Source of the DNA: Paenibacillus pedocola
GTDB lineage: Bacteria > Bacillota > Bacilli > Paenibacillales > Paenibacillaceae
DNA length: 64,000 bases
Direction: 5' to 3'
Assembly: GCF_031599675.1 (NCBI RefSeq)
Contig: NZ_CP134223.1
Location: 5,270,001 to 5,334,000, forward strand
Positions 48,806-58,033 of this stretch are shown piece after piece. Every line of letters starts with the position of its first letter. Positions within the stretch are counted from its first letter, which is position 1. The notes beneath the pieces were generated by a model. It was given only the letters and a program-made list of their open reading frames with translations, searched no databases and was not told the DNA's origin. The position numbers and the translations under genes are program-made.

Positions 48806-50026
48806 TTACAGGCTTACCTTCATTAGCAGATCCGCCTGAGTTTGCAGAAGTCCGATCTTATCCGTTTGCTCCCAGGGAAGATCCAGTCCAATTCTGCCAA
48901 AGTGACCATATGATGCAGTCTGCCTGTAAATGGGCCGGCGCAGATCCAGCATGCTTATAATGCCAGCCGGCCGGAGATCAAAGCTGGCGCGAATCAATTC
49001 TACCAGCTTGTCTTCATCTATCCTGCCTGTTCCAAAGGTATCAGCATATACCGATACCGGGTTTGCTACCCCGATTGCATAGGCCAGTTGAATTTCGCAT
49101 TGATCCGCCAGTCCTGCAGCCACAACATTCTTGGCGACATAGCGGGCGGCATATGCTCCCGACCGGTCCACCTTCGTAGGATCCTTACCGGAGAATGCGC
49201 CGCCGCCATGCCGGGCATAGCCTCCATAAGTATCCACAATAATTTTACGTCCCGTCAGGCCTGCATCCCCCTGCGGTCCGCCGATAACGAAACGTCCGGT
49301 AGGATTGATGAAGTATTTGGTATTCGTATCAAGTAGTTCAGGAGGAATCACAGGCAGAATGACATGGGTCCGGATGTCATGCTCAATTCTCTCAAGCGGT
49401 ATTTCTTCCGCATGCTGGGCGGATACCACAACCGTATCAACACGAACGGGCTTACCCTCCCGGTATTCAACGGTAACCTGTGTTTTACCGTCAGGACGCA
49501 GATAATCAAGGGTACCATTCTTACGTACCTCGGCCAACCGCTCAGCAATGCGATGTGACAAGGCAATCGGCAGCGGCATGAATTCGGGTGTCTCGTTCGT
49601 TGCATATCCGAACATCAGGCCCTGATCACCTGCGCCTATATTTACCGTTTCCGCAGCACTGACAGCAGTCCCCCGGTTCTCCAGCGCAGCATTCACACCT
49701 CTGGCAATATCAGCAGATTGTTCATTCAGTGAGACCAAGACGGCGCAGGTATCATAGCTGAATCCGCCCTGGGCCTGGACATATCCAATCTCCTTTATGG
49801 TATTCCGCACGACAGACTGTATATCCACATAATCGGAGTTCGTACTGACTTCGCCAATGACAAGCACTAGTCCTGTAGCTATGGAGACCTCACAGGCTAC
49901 TCGGGCGTGGGGATCACTTTTCAGAAACGCATCAAGTACCGCATCCGAGATCTGGTCACAGATTTTATCCGGATGCCCTTCCGTAACCGATTCCGAAGTG
50001 AACAGATAACTTCCTCTCACAGACAT
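48806..50026 (-). CDS. metK: S-adenosylmethionine synthetase
   Basis: The 406-residue enzyme makes SAM from methionine and [54 protein letters not shown] and [19 protein letters not shown] are the expected binding motifs, so it looks functional. Unlike most metK genes of Bacilli, no S-box precedes it; it lies 42 bp after a PNPOx-fold gene and shares a strand with a radical SAM gene that would consume SAM. It may be a second, dedicated copy. The C-terminus ([16 protein letters not shown]) is slightly unusual. Confidence 0.95.
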
Positions 50027-50068
50027 TAACTGAAACCTCCCGGGATTAATTGCATGGAGCTTCTGGAG

Positions 50069-50527
50069 CTACTTGGCCAGCCGGTCAAGGTGCATAACAA
50101 GCGGATGTTCTGCACGTTCTTTGCTCTTGCGGGCCTCGTAGGTGTCTTCACTGACTTCATCAGGCTCAATCACCCATACGGTCGACAGATCAAATTCCGG
50201 ATTTCTGGCCGCGCATAATTTGTAATAGTGCTCGAATAACGGACCGCTGATGATGGAGTACACCGGATATCCTTTGATCAGATAGACTTCTCCGGTTCCG
50301 GAGAGCTGAATGGCAACCTTCCTTTTGAACCAGATGCTGTTCACCAGATTCACATTCGTCTGCGAAGTTTCGATCAGCTCCAGATAGATAATTTGCCCTT
50401 GCTCATTACTTGTAATAGTAGAATCAAGGATGATATGAGGACTGCCGAGCTTATCGGCGGTTGCCAGAACTTTTGTCGCCTGTGGATCTTGCAGCAATGT
50501 CTGTATTCTTCCGCTTATTAATGGCAT
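50069..50527 (-). CDS. Pyridoxamine 5'-phosphate oxidase-like flavin-binding protein
   Basis: The 152-residue protein has the split-barrel pattern (GSPHIILDSTITSNEQGQII, FKRKVAIQLSGTGEVYLIKG). It may bind FMN or F420 or act as a small flavin reductase. It overlaps the end of the radical SAM gene by 10 bases. Beside an FMNH2-using monooxygenase, a role in flavin supply or as electron donor is conceivable, but the usual flavin reductase signature is not evident. Confidence 0.65.
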   Translation of the reverse strand: MPLISGRIQTLLQDPQATKVLATADKLGSPHIILDSTITSNEQGQIIYLELIETSQTNVNLVNSIWFKRKVAIQLSGTGEVYLIKGYPVYSIISGPLFEHYYKLCAARNPEFDLSTVWVIEPDEVSEDTYEARKSKERAEHPLVMHLDRLAK

Positions 50528-51807
50528 TGGAATGTTGCTCCTCCTATTCCTCTATCCAGATCCGTATCCGGGTGATTACCGCATTTCCGGTAATTGTCCA
50601 TATCGATATTCAAACGGTATTTCTGCCGTATTCCGCTTAATCCCTTAGCCAGCTGTACATAGTATTCCAGCGACGGGGTGACCTGGTTATGGAAAGCAGA
50701 GCCCTGCATCGGTACCCATACGCAATGAACCATGCTAACCCCTTGGCTTGCAAAATCTTCTGCCTCTTCCAGTACAATCTTCAGCGCCTCATCCTCATCC
50801 TTGATGCCGTGGGGTTTAGCCATTTCACAGCCGCCGACGATTCCGCTGCTGACGTTGCCTGCTCCGAAGATGTCTACCGCAGCGATAATCCTCCGTTTCC
50901 ACTCCCTGTACCCGACCTCCTTGTGTTTGCCTTTGCAGATCCAGGCGAATAACGCCTCATTCGGAATTTCAATATCGGAGGTGTAGGTCATCAGCCCGGT
51001 ATTCTCGTAAATTTTGGCCAACTGCCGCTCGTTAAAAGCCGAGGCCACAAGGGTGCTTGGGAATTTGCGTTCCTTGAAATTGTCTCCGGCGGCCTGCAGC
51101 ATTTCAATGTACATATCAACTTCATCATCGAATATTTCCTGGCCGCTGAGAATGGAACCAGAGCTCATCTTCAGATTGGTAAAGGCGCCCGGCTGCTTCA
51201 GGGCCTCTTTAACCGTTTCGTATACATCCTGGGCCTTCAGCTGCTTTTCCATGTTCCTTTCCTTATGGCTTCGGGTAGAGTTAGCGTTGATATTGCAGAA
51301 TTTACAACCGTTCCCCCCGCTCCAGAAATGGCAATGACTGTTGGGATCGATATCCAGCCTTTGCGGTCTTGCCGAAGCCACCTGCCACATCGGTTTGCCG
51401 GAGCTGGTGAACTGGTCATAATAATGGGGTTTGTACCAGTACTCCACCTCCTCTACCACTCTGCCCTGGTCAGTGATATACAGCTTGCCGTCGATTCGAT
51501 CGACTACATAAGGATTTCTAGCACCCGGCGAAGGCATAGCTATAATGGAAGTTCCATCTCTGAGCAGGAGCGATACCGGTACAGCGGCATGTTCATCCCC
51601 ATTGGAGCCGATTAATACACGCTGCTGATATTGATGTTTGTCTTTATCCAGCGCCTGCAGCGCCCGATCCGTATACACAAATGACCTGCGGGTAATATCC
51701 GATTTGATAATGACAAACGGTGATACATCATTGTATTTCTCCAACACTTCCTGCAAGGTCAATTCACTTGTCTGTCCGGAAGCCTGAAACGATACTGCAC
51801 ACATCAT
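50518..51807 (-). CDS. Radical SAM enzyme with unusual CX8CX2C motif
   Basis: The 429-residue protein has the cysteine set C159, C168, C171 (CHFWSGGNGCKFCN), with CX8CX2C spacing instead of the classical CX3CX2C. Longer first spacings occur in Elp3/YhcC-like families, so a [4Fe-4S] cluster is still plausible. Further Cys occur in GGCEM, VHCVW, KCGN and FQCH near the C-terminus and could bind a second cluster. Residues 1-140 form an unfamiliar N-terminal domain. RLDIDPNSHCHF starts the TIM-barrel part. Start is ATG 51807 or 51804, with AGAGGTGAAGG upstream. Confidence 0.75.
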   Translation of the reverse strand: MMCAVSFQASGQTSELTLQEVLEKYNDVSPFVIIKSDITRRSFVYTDRALQALDKDKHQYQQRVLIGSNGDEHAAVPVSLLLRDGTSIIAMPSPGARNPYVVDRIDGKLYITDQGRVVEEVEYWYKPHYYDQFTSSGKPMWQVASARPQRLDIDPNSHCHFWSGGNGCKFCNINANSTRSHKERNMEKQLKAQDVYETVKEALKQPGAFTNLKMSSGSILSGQEIFDDEVDMYIEMLQAAGDNFKERKFPSTLVASAFNERQLAKIYENTGLMTYTSDIEIPNEALFAWICKGKHKEVGYREWKRRIIAAVDIFGAGNVSSGIVGGCEMAKPHGIKDEDEALKIVLEEAEDFASQGVSMVHCVWVPMQGSAFHNQVTPSLEYYVQLAKGLSGIRQKYRLNIDMDNYRKCGNHPDTDLDRGIGGATFQCH

Positions 51808-51859
51808 CCTTCACCTCTTTAGTTTTTAAGTTTATGAATAAAGCTTGCTATTGGGGCTT

Positions 51860-52060
51860 GCCCGTGACTCCAGAGAATGTTTGGACTTCCGGCCGCTGCC
51901 CTTCTGCAGATTTCTTGATTTATACCGTTTCCACGGTGGAAATCCGCAGACAGCATATGCTTCCGAAGCGAGCTTTCCTACGGAAAGCTTTCAGGCGGAC
52001 GCTATCGCTCCGTAAGGCTCAAAATTCCCTTCCGCCGCTCTTCCCTTTTTGTATATTTTC
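51860..52060 (+). repeat. Dispersed-type intergenic repeat between permease and radical SAM genes
   Basis: The 287-bp gap 51808-52094 contains TTTCCAC-G-GTGGAAA (an inverted repeat), GCATATGCTTCCGAAGCGAG, AGCTTTCC-TAC-GGAAAGCT and GGCGGACGCTATCGCTCCG. The second of these is close to the GCGTATGCTTCCGAAGTGAG head of the sdh-region repeats. I recall similar GC-rich strings scattered in Paenibacillus genomes. No gene is visible inside. Confidence 0.5.
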
Positions 52061-52094
52061 AAGTTCAATCTCTATAAAACCCGTAATTTCTCCG

Positions 52095-52907
52095 CTACCC
52101 TTTAAGTGCCCCTTCCGTAAGTCCGGCTATAAAATAACGCTGCAGGAACAAGAAGAGCAGCACGAGCGGCAGTGAGGTTACTACTACTCCCGTCAGGAGC
52201 ATCGGATAATCAGTGACATATTCCCCCCTGAATTGCAGCATCGCCAGCGGTAAGGTCAATTTCGACTTTCCATTCAGCAGCAGCATGGGAATCAGCAGAT
52301 CATTCCACACCATCACCAGCAGAAAGGTAGCCGTAGCCGCCAGTGATGGGGCGGTCAGCGGAATGGTAATCCGCCAGTATAAGCTCCACTCCCCGCAGCC
52401 GTCCAAACTGCCCGCTTCAATCAATTCCCGGCTGAGCAGCTTCATAAATCCGGTCAGCATGAATACGGTCAGCGGCAGCAGCAAGGCGGTGGAGACCAGA
52501 ATCAGGCCGCCCAAGTGATCCGACAGATACAGCTTGCGGGCAAGAGCAAAGATGGTCAGCATATTCACTTGGGAGGGGACGATCAGTCCCGCTGTAAAAA
52601 TTGCAAATAATACCGTTCCCGCTGCGCCCCCAAAGCGAATAATTGCAAAAGAGATCAAGCTTCCCAGCAGGAGTACCAGCAGCACCGTGCCTGCCGTCAC
52701 TTGTATGCTGTTCCAGAAATAACGCCAGATTGGCTGTCCGGCAAACAGCTTCCCCAAATTATCGAGCGTCGGCGCAGCAGGCCATCCCAGTGGGCTTGCA
52801 TAAAAAGCTTGTGAGGATTTGAACACAGTTACGAATACAAAATAGAGCGGCGCTACGATGATCAGCGAATAGCACACGATAATCGTCCGCCGTACATGCA
52901 CAATCAA
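52095..52907 (-). CDS. Sugar-type (CUT1) ABC permease, MalG-like
   Basis: The 270-residue protein has six helices and the EAA loop IEAGSLDGCGEWSLYWRIT. It ends LQRYFIAGLTEGALKG, as in MalG-type permeases. Its start is TTG 52907, with GGGGAG seven bases upstream. It is the last gene of the monooxygenase-transporter operon. No ATPase is encoded in the locus, so a shared ATPase is expected. Confidence 0.92.
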   Translation of the reverse strand: MIVHVRRTIIVCYSLIIVAPLYFVFVTVFKSSQAFYASPLGWPAAPTLDNLGKLFAGQPIWRYFWNSIQVTAGTVLLVLLLGSLISFAIIRFGGAAGTVLFAIFTAGLIVPSQVNMLTIFALARKLYLSDHLGGLILVSTALLLPLTVFMLTGFMKLLSRELIEAGSLDGCGEWSLYWRITIPLTAPSLAATATFLLVMVWNDLLIPMLLLNGKSKLTLPLAMLQFRGEYVTDYPMLLTGVVVTSLPLVLLFLFLQRYFIAGLTEGALKG

Positions 52908-52924
52908 TAGAGTGCTCCCCTTCC

Positions 52925-53797
52925 TTAATAAGAGATGCGGCCGGCACGGAGCGCCTTGAACTGCAGAAACGTAAGCACAGAGAGCAGTACCAGGAATAAA
53001 GAGGAGCCGGCCGAGGCCTCTCCGAATGCATAACTGGAGAACGCCAGATGATAAATATAGGTAGTCATTATTTCCGTGGAGAAGTTGGGGCCGCCGTCAG
53101 TCATCGTGAAGATAAGATCGAACGCTTTAAAGGACTGGATTGTCGTATACGCCAGCACGATCGTCGCAGAAGGGGCAAGCAGCGGCCAGGTGATCTTCCT
53201 GAACACACGCCATCTGCTTCCACCGTCTATCACAGCCGCTTCGTGCAGCTCGGATGGAATGCTCTGCAGTCCCGCAATGAAGACAATCATCATCTGTCCG
53301 GCATGGGCCCACACCTGCACGGCTGCAATCGAGTAGATCGCAATTTTTTTGTCTCCAATCCAATTCAACGCCAGTTCCGGCCTACCCAGAGTTTGAAATA
53401 AGGTGCTTAGCAAGCCGATCGCCGGATCGTAGACAAACGACCAGATCAGCCCGACAGAAACGGAAGAAAGAATGGCCGGGAAGAAGAACAGCGCCCGTAA
53501 AAAGACATACGTTTTTCTGTTTTTGACCAACAGCAGTGCAAGAACCAGCGAAATCACCGATTGTGCCGCTACCACTGCCGCCATAAATTTCACATTGTTC
53601 CAGAACGCCTTGCGGAAGACGATACTCTCAAGAATGCTGTGGTAATTCTTCCAGCCTGTCAGCTTGAAGGAGGCAGAGAATCCGTCCCAATCCGTAAAAG
53701 AATAAACTAGGCCTAAGACCGTCGGATATACGAACACTACACCATACAGCAGCAGGCCAGGCAGCACGAATATCCATAACAGCTTACGGTTCCGCAT
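52925..53797 (-). CDS. Sugar-type (CUT1) ABC permease, MalF-like
   Basis: The 290-residue permease has six helices (LLWIFVLPGLLLYGVVFVYP at the start) and the EAA loop HEAAVIDGGSRWRVFRKITW. The start codon is two bases after the stop of the binding-protein gene, with no clear ribosome site of its own, so it probably relies on translational coupling. Confidence 0.92.
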   Translation of the reverse strand: MRNRKLLWIFVLPGLLLYGVVFVYPTVLGLVYSFTDWDGFSASFKLTGWKNYHSILESIVFRKAFWNNVKFMAAVVAAQSVISLVLALLLVKNRKTYVFLRALFFFPAILSSVSVGLIWSFVYDPAIGLLSTLFQTLGRPELALNWIGDKKIAIYSIAAVQVWAHAGQMMIVFIAGLQSIPSELHEAAVIDGGSRWRVFRKITWPLLAPSATIVLAYTTIQSFKAFDLIFTMTDGGPNFSTEIMTTYIYHLAFSSYAFGEASAGSSLFLVLLSVLTFLQFKALRAGRISY

Positions 53798-53799
53798 GG

Positions 53800-55104
53800 C
53801 TACTTGGACAGCTGCTGATCAACAATCGCCTGTGCTTCCTTGGCAGCATCCTCAGGCGATGAACCGCCCAGTACGGCTTGAATGGAATTCGTCACCGCTT
53901 TCTGGTTCTCGCTATTTTTGATCGTGAACCGGGGCTGGAACAGAGTCTTCTTATCTCCCCATTCACTGACGGCCTTCAGCTCCGTCGTGTTGTATTCCAC
54001 ATCTTTGACCGTGACGTTCTGCCCGGTTTCATTGGCATACTGGCCCGCAATATCCGCACGGCTCAAGAACTCCAGAAATTTCTTAGCCTCCTCTGGATGC
54101 TTGGATTTACTGTTCACACCCAGCAAAAACGTGCTGGTATGGATGCCCTCATATTTGGCTTGATCCGCAGGTACCGTGATAGGAGCCAGCAGCTTTTGCG
54201 TAAGGTCCGGATTCTGCGCCTTGTTCTGGGCAAGCTGGTATGATCCGCTGGCGAGGATAGCCGCCTTCTCTTGGATGAATAAAGCGCCTGCTGCTGCATC
54301 TTTAGTGCCAAGTGCATTCGGCTGGAAATAACCTTTATCATTCAGTTCTTTGATCTGGCTGAGCGTCTTGACCCACCAGGCATTAGTGAGCTTGTCTTCG
54401 CCCGCCTCTACCTTTGTAAAAGCATCATCCGAGGGCAAATTGTTCATCACCATGGTATTCATGAATTGTCCCGGACCGATATCCGCACCGGCAAAAGCAA
54501 TCGGGATCAGCCCTTTCTCCTTCAGCTTGGCGCACAGCGCAAGGAAACCTTCCCAGTCTGACGGGGGCTGCAAACCCAATTGCTCAAAAATCTTCACATT
54601 GTAAATCGGGTCATTATAGACAAGCTGATAAGGAACCGCCAATTGCTTACTCTCTTTCACACCGGCCTGGATAAGTGCCTCGCTATAATTCGCAAGAAAT
54701 GGCTCTCCCGACAAATCCGTGTACAATCCGGCATTTGCTACGGCTTCAAACTGTGCCCCCGGAAAAGAGGCAAAGAGATCTCCTGTGGAACCGTCTGAAA
54801 TCTTGGCAAGTGCGGAGGCCTGGTATTGATCCGACGGGAGCGTCTGCATCTCTACGGTGATATTAGGATTTTCCTCTTGAAATTTCTTAATAATCCCGTT
54901 AAACGACTCGGTGTCTTCGCCCCGCCAGTGCAGGAAGCTGAGCGTAACCTTCGGCTGCGCGCTCTCTGCCGGAGCTTCAGAAGCCTTCGCCGGAGAGTTC
55001 TCCTGAGCGGAAGAGGATGCTGTATTATTGCTGCAGGCTGAGACAAGAAGCATTACAGCAAGGGCTGCGGCCCACAAACTGGCACGGAATGAACTTTTTT
55101 TCAA
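53800..55104 (-). CDS. Sugar-type solute-binding lipoprotein
   Basis: The 434-residue lipoprotein has a signal ending in LVSACSNN and a family 1 binding domain (LSFLHWRGEDTESFNGIIKK, then GSTGDLFASFPG). Sugar-binding proteins of this family deliver oligo- or monosaccharides and polyols. The start is TTG 55104, since AAGGAGGG lies eight bases upstream; a TTG at 55122 would include the Shine-Dalgarno. It directly follows an SsuD-like monooxygenase, where one would expect a sulfonate-binding SsuA instead. Confidence 0.9.
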   Translation of the reverse strand: MKKSSFRASLWAAALAVMLLVSACSNNTASSSAQENSPAKASEAPAESAQPKVTLSFLHWRGEDTESFNGIIKKFQEENPNITVEMQTLPSDQYQASALAKISDGSTGDLFASFPGAQFEAVANAGLYTDLSGEPFLANYSEALIQAGVKESKQLAVPYQLVYNDPIYNVKIFEQLGLQPPSDWEGFLALCAKLKEKGLIPIAFAGADIGPGQFMNTMVMNNLPSDDAFTKVEAGEDKLTNAWWVKTLSQIKELNDKGYFQPNALGTKDAAAGALFIQEKAAILASGSYQLAQNKAQNPDLTQKLLAPITVPADQAKYEGIHTSTFLLGVNSKSKHPEEAKKFLEFLSRADIAGQYANETGQNVTVKDVEYNTTELKAVSEWGDKKTLFQPRFTIKNSENQKAVTNSIQAVLGGSSPEDAAKEAQAIVDQQLSK

Positions 55105-55118
55105 TGAAATACCCTCCT

Positions 55119-56294
55119 TCAAAGGTTATCGTTCTTGTTCCACCGCTGACGAAAAAGCGGCAATACCTTGTGACCAAAGTTGTCCGCCTCCTCCAGATGA
55201 GGGTAGCCGGATAGAATAAATGTGCTTATGCCAATCTCGGCATAACGGATTAGAACATCTGTGACTTGTTCTGCTGTGCCGACAATCATCATGGCTCCTC
55301 CTGACCGGACAAGTGATAAACCGCTCCACAGGTTGGGGCCAATGACAAAATTATCAGCGGCTGACTGTTCACGAAGCTCATTCTGTCTGCGCTGCCCGGA
55401 GGCATCGGTCTGTGTAAAATCCCGCTTAGCTTGCTGCAGCTTATCTTCAGAGGCAAAGCTGATGAGCTTCCATGCTGCTTCCCATGCCTCCTCTTCGCTA
55501 TCACGGATGAGTACCTGCGCCCTTAATCCGTACCTAACCTTCCGTTTGATTCCGGTCTCCACCAAATATTGTTCCTGCACTTGCTCCATTTCGGCAATTT
55601 GTCCGGCAATCCATTCAGGCGGTTCCCCCCACATCAGGTAAGTATCGGCGTGTTCTGCGGCAGTCTGCCGTGCAACCGGTGAGCTTCCTCCCAAATATAG
55701 AGGGGGATGGGGTTGCTGTACGGCAACCGGCATGTTGACCGGACCGTGGAACTGATAGTACTTGCCGGCAAACGCCGATCCGGAATCTGCAGCAGCTGCC
55801 AACTCACTCCCCTGATCTGAGAATTCTGAGTAGGCGGTCCCGCCTGACCCGCTCCAGGCAAGCTTCATGACCTGCATGTATTCCTTCGCCCGTTCATACC
55901 GTTCGTCGTGGGCATGGGCAAGCGGATCGCCCAGCTGCTCCAAGTCCTGGACGGAGCTTCCGGTTACCACATTAATCATTGCCCGCCCTCCTGACAGCTG
56001 ATCCAGAGAAGCGGCCATTCGGGCCGCCAGTACCGGAGTAATCAATCCGGGTCTTACAGCCACAAGCGCCTGAAGAGATGTAGTATGGCTTATTACCGCT
56101 GAACCGACGACCCATGAATCCAGGCAGGCTCCTCCGGTCGGGATGAGGACGAACTCTAGTCCCGAACGTTCCGCCATCTGCGCCACTTCAATTAAATAGG
56201 CAAGTGTTGCTTCCCTCTCAGGAGCAGTTCCTACATAGCGGCCATCCCCGGAGGTAGGCAAAAACCAGCCAAATTGAATTTTTTCTGAAGCCAT
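55119..56294 (-). CDS. ssuD: SsuD-like FMNH2-dependent alkanesulfonate monooxygenase
   Basis: The 391-residue luciferase-like enzyme should cleave C-S bonds of sulfonates with O2 and FMNH2, releasing sulfite. It has SsuD landmarks throughout: FGWFLPTSGDGRYVGT, LIPTGGACLDSWVVGS, LGGSSPVARQTAAEHADTYL, TWGEPP-like LMWGEPPEW, GPNLWSGLSLVRSG and LSGYPHLEEADNFG. The start ATG 56294 has GGGGAGG six bases upstream. It heads an operon with a CUT1 sugar transporter rather than SsuABC. This recalls the sulfoquinovose monooxygenase pathway, where an SsuD relative sits with a sugar transporter. Confidence 0.9.
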   Translation of the reverse strand: MASEKIQFGWFLPTSGDGRYVGTAPEREATLAYLIEVAQMAERSGLEFVLIPTGGACLDSWVVGSAVISHTTSLQALVAVRPGLITPVLAARMAASLDQLSGGRAMINVVTGSSVQDLEQLGDPLAHAHDERYERAKEYMQVMKLAWSGSGGTAYSEFSDQGSELAAAADSGSAFAGKYYQFHGPVNMPVAVQQPHPPLYLGGSSPVARQTAAEHADTYLMWGEPPEWIAGQIAEMEQVQEQYLVETGIKRKVRYGLRAQVLIRDSEEEAWEAAWKLISFASEDKLQQAKRDFTQTDASGQRRQNELREQSAADNFVIGPNLWSGLSLVRSGGAMMIVGTAEQVTDVLIRYAEIGISTFILSGYPHLEEADNFGHKVLPLFRQRWNKNDNL

Positions 56295-56371
56295 TAGAGC
56301 CCTCCCCTCTTCTCCGCAATGAATACGGGCTGTTTGGTTATATCTCCGGTGAACCGGTTGATTTCCAATAA

Positions 56372-56388
56372 AACTTATAGGATAAGTT
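56372..56388. promoter_or_regulatory. Palindrome upstream of the ssuD-like gene
   Basis: AACTTAT-AGG-ATAAGTT is a perfect 7-3-7 palindrome, 78 bp before the monooxygenase start. On the minus strand it overlaps a TTGCTA and TATCCT/TATAAG promoter-like region. It is a candidate operator for sulfur- or substrate-responsive control. The rest of the 314-bp divergent region shows no S-box. Confidence 0.45.
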
Positions 56389-56608
56389 ATATAAATATTG
56401 TAGCAACCTCCGCCGCGGCAAGGGAATGTCAATTCGCGGTTACTTCTATTTATCAATTTGCGTCTTTCCGGAAGTGTTTTTTACACAAAAATAATGGGGA
56501 ATTTGCTATTTCCGACTTGTAGTGCGGGCTGTAGTCATCTATTATTTATAAACAACCGATTTTCCATTATTTATTAAATAAATACACATGGCAAAAAGAG
56601 GGCTGTCG

Positions 56609-57478
56609 ATGAACAACAAAATGATCGAGGATAATCATGAGTTTTTGGAGCTCTGCTTATTCACTCCTTCCGCATATGAAAAGTGCGGTGCAGCTTGGCC
56701 TATCCGGCTGGGGCACAACATCGCCAAACCAAACTATCATATCGGCCCCCGGACAACGCCTTATTATTATTTGCTTTTTGTGCTGGAGGGACAAGGAACG
56801 TTCCATCAGAATCACCATACCTACACGCTTGGCAAAAACGATGTGTTCTGCCTGTTTCCGCAGGTCATTCACGAATACTACACGCATCCTGACCATCTCC
56901 TGCAAAAAGTCTTTATTGCCTTTGATGGAAAACAGGCTCTCCGGCTGCTCGAAAAAATCGGACTAAGTCTCCACAGCCCCCATGCAGCAGGCATTTTGAC
57001 TCCCGAAGTGATCCAGCTGATGTGGGATTTTTTCAGCCTGGTGAAATCAGACAGCCACAGTGACCTGGGAAGGCTGATTCTGTTCCACCGTATCTTTGAT
57101 CAGCTGCTTGCTGCCGTTCAGAATACAGCTTCGGGCGAAGACCCGAATGTATCCTGGCTGCAAAAGGGGCATGAATATATGGAGATTCATTATGCAGAGG
57201 GAATTACTGTTGAGAGAGTAGCCGCTTATGTGGGTGTGGACCGCACCTATTTCACCAAACAGTTCCGCAAGACGTACGGAATTACTCCAATCCAGTTTAT
57301 TCAGGATCTCAAAATGAAAGAGGCCAGGCGCTTATTGGAGCAAACCAGCTACACCCTGTCCGAGATTGCTCAATCTGTAGGATATCCGGATCTCTTCTCC
57401 TTCTCAAAGGCATTTAAGAAGCAGCTTGGTGCTGCACCTACACGCTTCAGGTATGAAGTTCGTAACCAAATCCCGTAA
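56609..57478 (+). CDS. AraC family transcriptional regulator (cupin sensor)
   Basis: The 289-residue protein has a cupin domain (about 15-150, with KNDVFCLFPQVIHEYY) and a C-terminal double helix-turn-helix (VERVAAYVGVDRTYFTKQFR, LSEIAQSVGYPDLFSFSKAF). Such proteins usually sense sugars and activate adjacent transporter genes. It is divergent from the monooxygenase-transporter operon and is its likely activator. GAGGG is six bases before ATG 56609. Confidence 0.9.
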   Translation: MNNKMIEDNHEFLELCLFTPSAYEKCGAAWPIRLGHNIAKPNYHIGPRTTPYYYLLFVLEGQGTFHQNHHTYTLGKNDVFCLFPQVIHEYYTHPDHLLQKVFIAFDGKQALRLLEKIGLSLHSPHAAGILTPEVIQLMWDFFSLVKSDSHSDLGRLILFHRIFDQLLAAVQNTASGEDPNVSWLQKGHEYMEIHYAEGITVERVAAYVGVDRTYFTKQFRKTYGITPIQFIQDLKMKEARRLLEQTSYTLSEIAQSVGYPDLFSFSKAFKKQLGAAPTRFRYEVRNQIP

Positions 57479-57493: not shown

Positions 57494-58033
57494 TTGAAAT
57501 CTATCTATCTGTTTCTGATCGCGGCGGCCATTCTTTTGACCGGGTGTACTATCACCATTGATACCAAAAAAGATTCCGTAGACACGCCTCCATACGCAGG
57601 AAGGGCGCTGCACCTGGCCGTTATCGGAGAAGCCCCGTCCGTTAGAGAGCGACAGGCGAAATTCTCGGCAATCACGTTTGATGACCTGTTGAACAACCAA
57701 TCGCTGGCAGCAGACTTTGATGCTGTGTTCATTATGAAGGAGCATTTATCTGAGGCTGCGGATGACCAGTATGCAGAGGTGTACAGAACCGCAGGTATCC
57801 CGTTCTTTTTTATCGAGTCGAAGAAATCTTACATGCCATTTATACTTGAGGATATTGCCTATGAGGATATTAAGGACACCAATGATGGTCTATATGCCAC
57901 AGGATATTTTAACTCTGAGGGAAAATGGGAGTTCTGGGGAACCGGACTGTACAACGATAAAGTCAACAGCAGCAACATCCAATCCGCCTATTCGCGGGTA
58001 TTCGAAACCATCCATAATTGGCCGAAAAAATAA
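57494..58033 (+). CDS. Predicted lipoprotein of unknown function
   Basis: The 179-residue protein has a signal peptide with lipobox LTGC (about residue 18) and no family that I recognise. The mature part has alternating strands and a Tyr/Phe-rich C-terminus. Its start is TTG 57494, with AAGGAG eight bases upstream. It begins 15 bp after the AraC gene and may be in the same transcript. A strong terminator follows. Confidence 0.75.
   Translation: MKSIYLFLIAAAILLTGCTITIDTKKDSVDTPPYAGRALHLAVIGEAPSVRERQAKFSAITFDDLLNNQSLAADFDAVFIMKEHLSEAADDQYAEVYRTAGIPFFFIESKKSYMPFILEDIAYEDIKDTNDGLYATGYFNSEGKWEFWGTGLYNDKVNSSNIQSAYSRVFETIHNWPKK

Follow-up and report, generated by a model that had tools for sequence, protein, structure and literature searches.

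Locus and gene content

We analysed a window of 64,000 nucleotides from Paenibacillus pedocola (contig NZ_CP134223.1, positions 5,270,001 to 5,334,000 of the forward strand; the genome is a single 6.47-Mb contig), focusing on a seven-gene minus-strand unit that combines an SsuD-like monooxygenase, a sugar-type ATP-binding cassette (ABC) importer, a radical S-adenosylmethionine (SAM) enzyme, a small flavin mononucleotide (FMN)-type protein and a MetK. Judged from sequence, an organosulfur (sulfonate) role for this putative operon is well supported. Its features, in window coordinates with protein lengths in amino acids (aa), are as follows.

56588..57478, plus strand: divergent AraC-type regulator (HTH_18, HTH_AraC and AraC_binding above cut-off)
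56397..56432, minus strand: conserved leader box, TTGACA ... TACAAT (-10-like), from alignment of upstream regions
56364..56382, minus strand: putative palindromic operator TCCTATAAGTTTTATTGGA, upstream of the SsuD start
55119..56294, minus strand: SsuD-like FMNH2-dependent monooxygenase, 391 aa (TIGR03565, 352.9 bits)
53800..55122, minus strand: sugar-type ABC binding protein, a lipoprotein (SBP_bac_1, 118.8 bits)
52925..53797, minus strand: CUT1-type permease 1 (BPD_transp_1)
52095..52907, minus strand: CUT1-type permease 2 (BPD_transp_1)
51808..52094, no strand: gap with part of a dispersed repeat (blastn copies)
50518..51807, minus strand: variant radical SAM enzyme (NF045502, 202.7 bits)
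50069..50527, minus strand: FMN-type split-barrel (PNPOx-fold) protein, 152 aa (predicted fold)
48806..50026, minus strand: MetK (SAM synthetase), the genome's second (TIGR01034, 591.5 bits)

Leftwards of the AraC gene the order is thus SsuD-like, binding protein, two permeases, radical SAM, FMN protein and MetK, with intergenic distances of -4, 2, 17, 287, -10 and 42 bp. The original prediction had described these genes, their short gaps and overlaps and the 287-bp exception, and all are present as described. The wide gap before the radical SAM gene is not conserved, measuring 24-57 bp in four relatives with orthologous importers; partial copies (76-83%) of the repeat that it contains were found by blastn in three other stretches of the same genome (L079, L078 and L081) and in a relative's locus (L051). 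The AraC-type regulator is probably a substrate sensor.

A two-gene core in Paenibacillaceae

We surveyed 100 genomes of the genus, counting the window's own. Twelve of them encode the radical SAM enzyme (E <= 1e-60), and exactly these 12 also encode the FMN protein (E <= 1e-15). If the two were independent, the chance of this co-occurrence would be 9.5e-16, a figure that shared descent makes less extreme. SsuD orthologues (>= 67% identity) occur in 10 of those 12 genomes and in none of the other 88; matches of <= 48% occur in 11 further genomes, one of them the radical SAM genome G027 (47%, located elsewhere). Dispersal of these genes among Paenibacillus genomes had been named as an outcome that would refute the sulfonate proposal, and it is not what we see.

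Together with two Paenibacillaceae metagenome genomes, the 12 genus genomes provide 14 loci. The radical SAM and FMN-protein genes are present and adjacent in all 14, and these two genes are the constant core of the locus. SsuD accompanies them in 12/14, MetK in 8/14 and SsuA in none; an AraC-type gene and a sugar-type binding protein are each found in 13/14, the contig of the remaining locus being cut for both.

The importer is more variable. The window's binding protein, which scores 73 bits or less against solved relatives, has orthologues at L051, L057, L058 and L060 (73-84% identity) and more distant counterparts at L029 and L030 (64-65%). The durus-type loci carry a different importer, with a binding protein only 22-24% identical in the 6/6 loci where it is visible; there the palindrome comes downstream of the importer genes and is followed by a cassette of ssuD, radical SAM, FMN protein and metK. 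In Paenibacillus, an importer of the sugar type would point to a substrate resembling a sugar or polyol. This importer type is the one basis for the sulfonated sugar originally predicted as the imported compound, a proposal that is weakened by the exchange of importers in the durus-type loci.

Radical SAM enzyme and FMN-type partner protein

The radical SAM protein scores 202.7 bits against NF045502 (variant_rSAM), above the curated cut-off of 125, and 32.6 bits against TIGR04043 (MSMEG_0568-family radical SAM). In an alignment of 71 sequences (A1: 59 of 120 listed radical SAM proteins, from 956, together with 11 proteins of the loci and that of the window), C159, C168 and C171 (CX8CX2C), C291, C409 and H412 are invariant; the three cysteines for a SAM-binding [4Fe-4S] cluster, the mark of the radical SAM superfamily, are present. 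The predicted model is a TIM barrel, near LipA and HydE. The small partner (alignment A2: 27 of 33 FMN proteins, 13 locus proteins and the window's) is predicted to adopt a PNPOx-like split barrel. We call it FMN-type by fold and predict FMN binding from the model; split-barrel relatives also bind F420, flavin adenine dinucleotide or heme. Profile searches of PDB sequences with either protein gave no significant match.

At E <= 0.001 the radical SAM protein matches 956 proteins, more distant subfamilies among them; the neighbourhoods surveyed here leave out the Clostridium tyrobutyricum, Rhodocyclus and Synergistaceae proteins in that set. Canonical members of the NF045502/TIGR04043 type (444-445 bits) belong to the same sequence family and adjoin other SsuA/B/C-type genes, but the present subfamily is only about 24-34% identical to them, and the FMN protein was not seen beside canonical members in eight stretches of 3.8-3.9 kb. 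Canonical genes with another SsuA/B/C-type transporter set were observed at L014, L016-L022, L031:19946-21142 and L073:12634-13896, and this is a second uncharacterised pairing of radical SAM protein and transporter.

A tree of the locus radical SAM proteins joins Paenibacillaceae and an Oscillospiraceae metagenome-assembled genome (MAG) in one group (100/100 support), with Ruminiclostridium and Eubacterium next to it (98/97); the root is unsure, the outgroup being too long to place it. Two loci, L068 and L071, hold three copies each of this radical SAM family. What may be left of a decayed locus of this kind is seen on a short contig (L015, G029:C326), where a metK-like fragment occurs together with 22 residues that match the radical SAM C-terminus and are interrupted by a stop. 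Selenocysteine at a TGA in the radical SAM gene of G487 was considered and dropped, the 425-aa open reading frame (ORF) in L067 closing there.

Loci outside Paenibacillaceae

A scan of GTDB contigs, with phylum and class samples, found 15 further radical SAM loci in 13 genomes, mostly clostridial, including two Ruminiclostridium cellobioparum subspecies, a Eubacterium MAG and the Oscillospiraceae MAG. For the genome count, L033 and L035 are taken as one genome, as are L071 and L072; locus counts are per locus. Class searches of small groups yielded 2/29, 1/82 and 1/4 genomes, a fourth class 5/380, and the phylum sample 5/398 including this genome.

Each of the 13 genomes has both the FMN protein and an SsuA-type gene in the vicinity of the radical SAM gene (on two contig pieces in the Oscillospiraceae MAG). 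All 10 pair-adjacent binding proteins scanned, from nine loci, exceed the aliphatic-sulfonate cut-off of TIGR01728 (214-244 versus 163.5 bits). As a control, 20 windows, each 20 kb long, were taken from three of the genomes; none had SsuA, FMN protein or MetK, and one had SsuC-type genes. The Ruminiclostridium order is metK, radical SAM, FMN protein, ssuA, ssuC, ssuB. At L069 cysK stands beside metK, and genes for a double-cubane-type ATP-dependent reductase and its activase lie between ssuA and ssuC (L069:4259-7484), a possible source of low-potential electrons; L070 carries an [FeFe] hydrogenase and HydG. For nine of the 13 genomes we infer a life without oxygen. In one locus (L073, G884:C1:294001-314000) the radical SAM/FMN-protein/SsuABC module is flanked by nitrogenase-like genes, 73-81% identical to those of a cluster in the window's genome (L080); this locus also has a BchE-like B12-binding radical SAM protein and a methionine gamma-lyase-like gene (below cut-off). 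A BchE-like B12-binding radical SAM gene likewise adjoins the module at L067:11872-13236. Transporter genes gave matches to 'Sao', the selenium-assisted organometallic system (PMC13188914), all below cut-off and not retained.

SsuD had no match in any of the 15 stretches, the search being confined to these stretches and not extended to whole genomes. This bears on how the two kinds of enzyme would be related. They could serve one linear pathway in which an imported sulfonate is desulfonated by SsuD, with the radical SAM enzyme acting before or after on the same molecule, for instance by dehydration or rearrangement; SsuD, radical SAM and FMN protein do share one unit in 12/14 Paenibacillaceae loci, and SsuD directly adjoins the radical SAM gene in the durus-type loci. 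An oxygen-dependent and an oxygen-sensitive enzyme in series would be awkward, however, and the pair occurs without a nearby SsuD in 15/15 stretches from the 13 other genomes and in 2/14 Paenibacillaceae loci. We therefore regard such a pathway as unlikely, and the serial step of the original prediction gives way to two steps that are probably parallel. Still less probable, in our judgement, is that the radical SAM and FMN proteins serve a separate enzyme by making or activating what it needs, be it a cofactor or a protein (such as a modified flavin, or a glycyl or other radical): we saw no third enzyme common to the loci, where the unmatched ORFs are only partly identified, and SsuD is not in the clostridial-type stretches.

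The SsuD-like monooxygenase

The SsuD-like ORF extends to 56456. We place the start, on sequence grounds, probably at ATG 56294, because a purine-rich stretch precedes it and 8/10 uncut homologues fall within 386-394 aa, a range that includes the 391 aa obtained here. With 352.9 bits the protein stays under the TIGR03565 (SsuD equivalog) cut-off of 518.2 and is therefore called SsuD-like only. It scores 302, 290 and 289 bits against alkanesulfonate monooxygenases and 148 and 142 bits against chains 7olf and 7oh2, which we take to be sulfoquinovose monooxygenases (their PDB titles read methanesulfonate sulfonatase and alkanesulfonate monooxygenase). The protein is nearer to the alkanesulfonate enzymes than to these two chains, a point on which the original prediction is altered. 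Of six further luciferase-type proteins in the genome, the three that were scanned are LLM_2I7G-like, two over the cut-off and one below.

Outside sulfonate use, too, the SsuD-like protein has relatives, SfnG being one (161.6 bits, below cut-off). The module might take its sulfur from another organosulfur class, such as a thioether, sulfone, sulfoxide or methylthio sugar, and its position at L073 within a nitrogenase-like cluster akin to L080 would fit, methylthioalkane reductase being described as such an enzyme (PMC11423573). Against this, TIGR03565 outscores SfnG by 191 bits, and the pair-adjacent binding proteins pass the sulfonate cut-off in 10/10 cases. We give this alternative a low probability, much like that of the linear pathway and if anything slightly lower.

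Regulation

Alignment of the upstream regions reveals a conserved leader containing the palindrome TCCTATAAGTTTTATTGGA. Allowing <= 2 mismatches to a degenerate pattern, the palindrome is found in 13/14 Paenibacillaceae loci, at one position each (L028 is cut); every time it precedes the unit's leading gene, which is SsuD in 11 loci and the binding protein gene in the two loci that lack SsuD. The pattern was derived from the loci in which it was counted, and only the controls test it; there were no matches in 400 kb of control sequence and none in seven other stretches of the window's genome. We also built a matrix from the 13 sites. Over 1.396 Mb of the 6.47-Mb genome its best score, 34.0, falls on the window site, which belongs to the training set; the runner-up reaches 21.5. 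For the leader box we do not claim a canonical promoter, the TTGACA/TACAAT spacing being 24 bp.

The half-site geometry CCKAY-N7-RTMGG, from whose strict form the window site departs by one base, has 18 matches in the same 1.396 Mb. Among the 12 of these 18 that were listed, the most A/T-rich is at the promoter of a cysK-like gene (L107, 58% identical to the CysK of L069). CymR of Bacillus subtilis is a repressor of both cysK and the ssu sulfonate genes (PMC3828012). From this, and from the geometry seen at the cysK-like promoter, we tentatively predict that a CymR-type repressor would control the operon.

No riboswitch or T-box was found in the window, at the operon in 14 other loci, or within about 1.5 kb of either metK; an S-box at L068 lies upstream of a gene other than the operon.

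Proposed function

Linkage, co-occurrence, importer association, the conserved leader and palindrome and the predicted folds lead us to favour, with about even confidence, a sulfur-scavenging operon for organosulfonates with two parallel routes of carbon-sulfur (C-S) bond breakage, one oxygen-dependent and one oxygen-independent. A sulfonate role is proposed because the pair bears two independent marks, an SsuA-type importer in one group and an SsuD-type enzyme in the other. The organosulfur operon originally predicted has gained from the comparison, in that its genes stay together in relatives and the geometry of its palindrome recurs at one of two cysK-like promoters.

The reaction, substrate and electron flow would be as follows. 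When oxygen is present, the SsuD-like flavin monooxygenase would free sulfite, as its family leads one to expect; when it is absent, cleavage of the C-S bond would fall to the radical SAM enzyme together with its FMN-type partner. A 5'-deoxyadenosyl radical would abstract hydrogen near that bond, the substrate radical would expel sulfite, and the FMN protein would give or accept single electrons. SAM would be a consumed co-substrate, and the extra MetK would return the released methionine to SAM. In Paenibacillaceae the place of the clostridial SsuABC-type importer would be taken by the sugar-type one, whose cargo may be a sulfonated sugar or polyol, and the palindromic operator would couple the operon to cysteine or sulfur supply. 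That the pair is itself a direct sulfonate desulfonase, consuming SAM that a dedicated MetK replenishes, we advance more tentatively than the operon's role as a whole.

With one SAM used and one methionine freed per turnover, a co-transcribed MetK makes sense. MetK lies near 15/29 loci overall (8/14 in Paenibacillaceae and 7/15 elsewhere), and local SAM supply would therefore be helpful, not essential. The local MetK, one of two in this genome, thus fits the supply role first proposed for it, as an optional part.

Several results weigh against a sulfonate operon of this kind. Two of the 14 Paenibacillaceae loci have no SsuD, none has SsuABC (the window's binding protein is SBP_bac_1), and MetK is missing near 14/29 loci. 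The SsuD-like protein does not reach the SsuD equivalog cut-off, and in its counterpart of the Escherichia coli GIRLH stretch the Arg is kept and the His replaced by Gln in 12/12 sequences, both presumably active-site residues of SsuD. Three other SsuA-like proteins in clostridial-type loci miss the TIGR01728 cut-off (73.6, 86.6 and 110.5 bits), and SsuA-type substrate-binding proteins of the wider NMT1 fold also bind non-sulfonates. The palindrome is absent from 13/14 clostridial-type loci scanned (L075 has one two-mismatch match), and a second cysK-like gene (L137, 67% to the L069 CysK) has no match among the 12 of 18 geometry matches listed.

Few oxygen-independent routes from sulfonates to sulfur are known, and a two-gene radical SAM module that adjoins sulfonate-type importers, as seen in 13 genomes outside Paenibacillaceae, is a testable candidate. 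If the proposal is true, it adds a further such route, used by clostridia, beside Xsc, the glycyl radical lyases and IsrBHDK, while the Paenibacillus operon would join SsuD to the radical SAM pair and so work with and without oxygen for one nutrient. A radical SAM subfamily with no previous functional hypothesis also acquires one.

Comparison with known systems

We found no description of a sulfonate system with radical SAM, PNPOx-fold and MetK proteins in open-licence PMC papers, which mostly leave out the subscription literature. SsuEADCB is the alkanesulfonate system of E. coli and B. subtilis. It shares with the loci described here the SsuD-type monooxygenase and, in clostridial-type loci, the SsuABC-type importer; the Paenibacillus operon differs in its sugar-type importer, in having no SsuE that we could see, and in the added radical SAM enzyme, FMN protein and MetK. 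The sulfoquinovose monooxygenase pathway, Sulfo-ASMO, also uses an SsuD relative (PMC12890257), and the original prediction credits it with a sugar-type transporter as well; the partner enzymes SmoA and SmoB were not seen in the operon and the radical SAM module is added. The SsuD-like protein is, moreover, more distant from the two chains mentioned above, presumably SmoC, than from alkanesulfonate monooxygenases.

The nearest parallel is IsrBHDK, the isethionate reductase of Rhodobacter capsulatus, a nitrogenase-like enzyme with a radical SAM protein and SsuCAB. After Xsc and IslAB it is presented as the third enzyme to desulfurise isethionate without oxygen (PMC11423573). Both systems would assimilate sulfonate sulfur without oxygen through a radical SAM protein and an SsuCAB-type importer. 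IsrBHDK, however, needs the nitrogenase-like HDK, and its radical SAM protein is reported to be most similar to BciD (PMC11423573). Genes for HDK are absent at 28/29 of our loci, including the window, and L073 has them around the module. The text of the Isr paper mentions neither metK nor PNPOx nor Paenibacillus (PMC11423573).

Radical, oxygen-independent C-S cleavage with release of sulfite is also the chemistry of the glycyl radical lyases IslA/IseG and HpsG, in which the radical SAM protein only activates the glycyl radical enzyme; these are the enzymes that a section of a 2026 review names for radical sulfonate cleavage (PMC12890257). Among the ORFs scanned here, a part of the total, we recognised no glycyl radical enzyme.

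Other observations

The L080 cluster of the window's genome (C1:3686001-3705000) encodes NifH-like and NifB-like proteins over their cut-offs and NifD/K-like proteins below, and it also holds an O-acetylhomoserine sulfhydrylase-type (homocysteine synthase-type) gene and SsuABC-like genes. It seems to resemble a methylthioalkane reductase locus, and would presumably be a second organosulfur salvage system in this genome. In another stretch (L081, C1:5195001-5214000), further nif-like genes accompany a second nifH, whose 442 bits exceed the cut-off; the organism is therefore probably a nitrogen fixer. Within the window, araC is followed by a 179-aa lipoprotein-like ORF (57494-58033). At L057 and L058 the araC neighbour is an ORF of 418-419 aa that matches it over about 170 aa, so the window's ORF may be a shortened copy.

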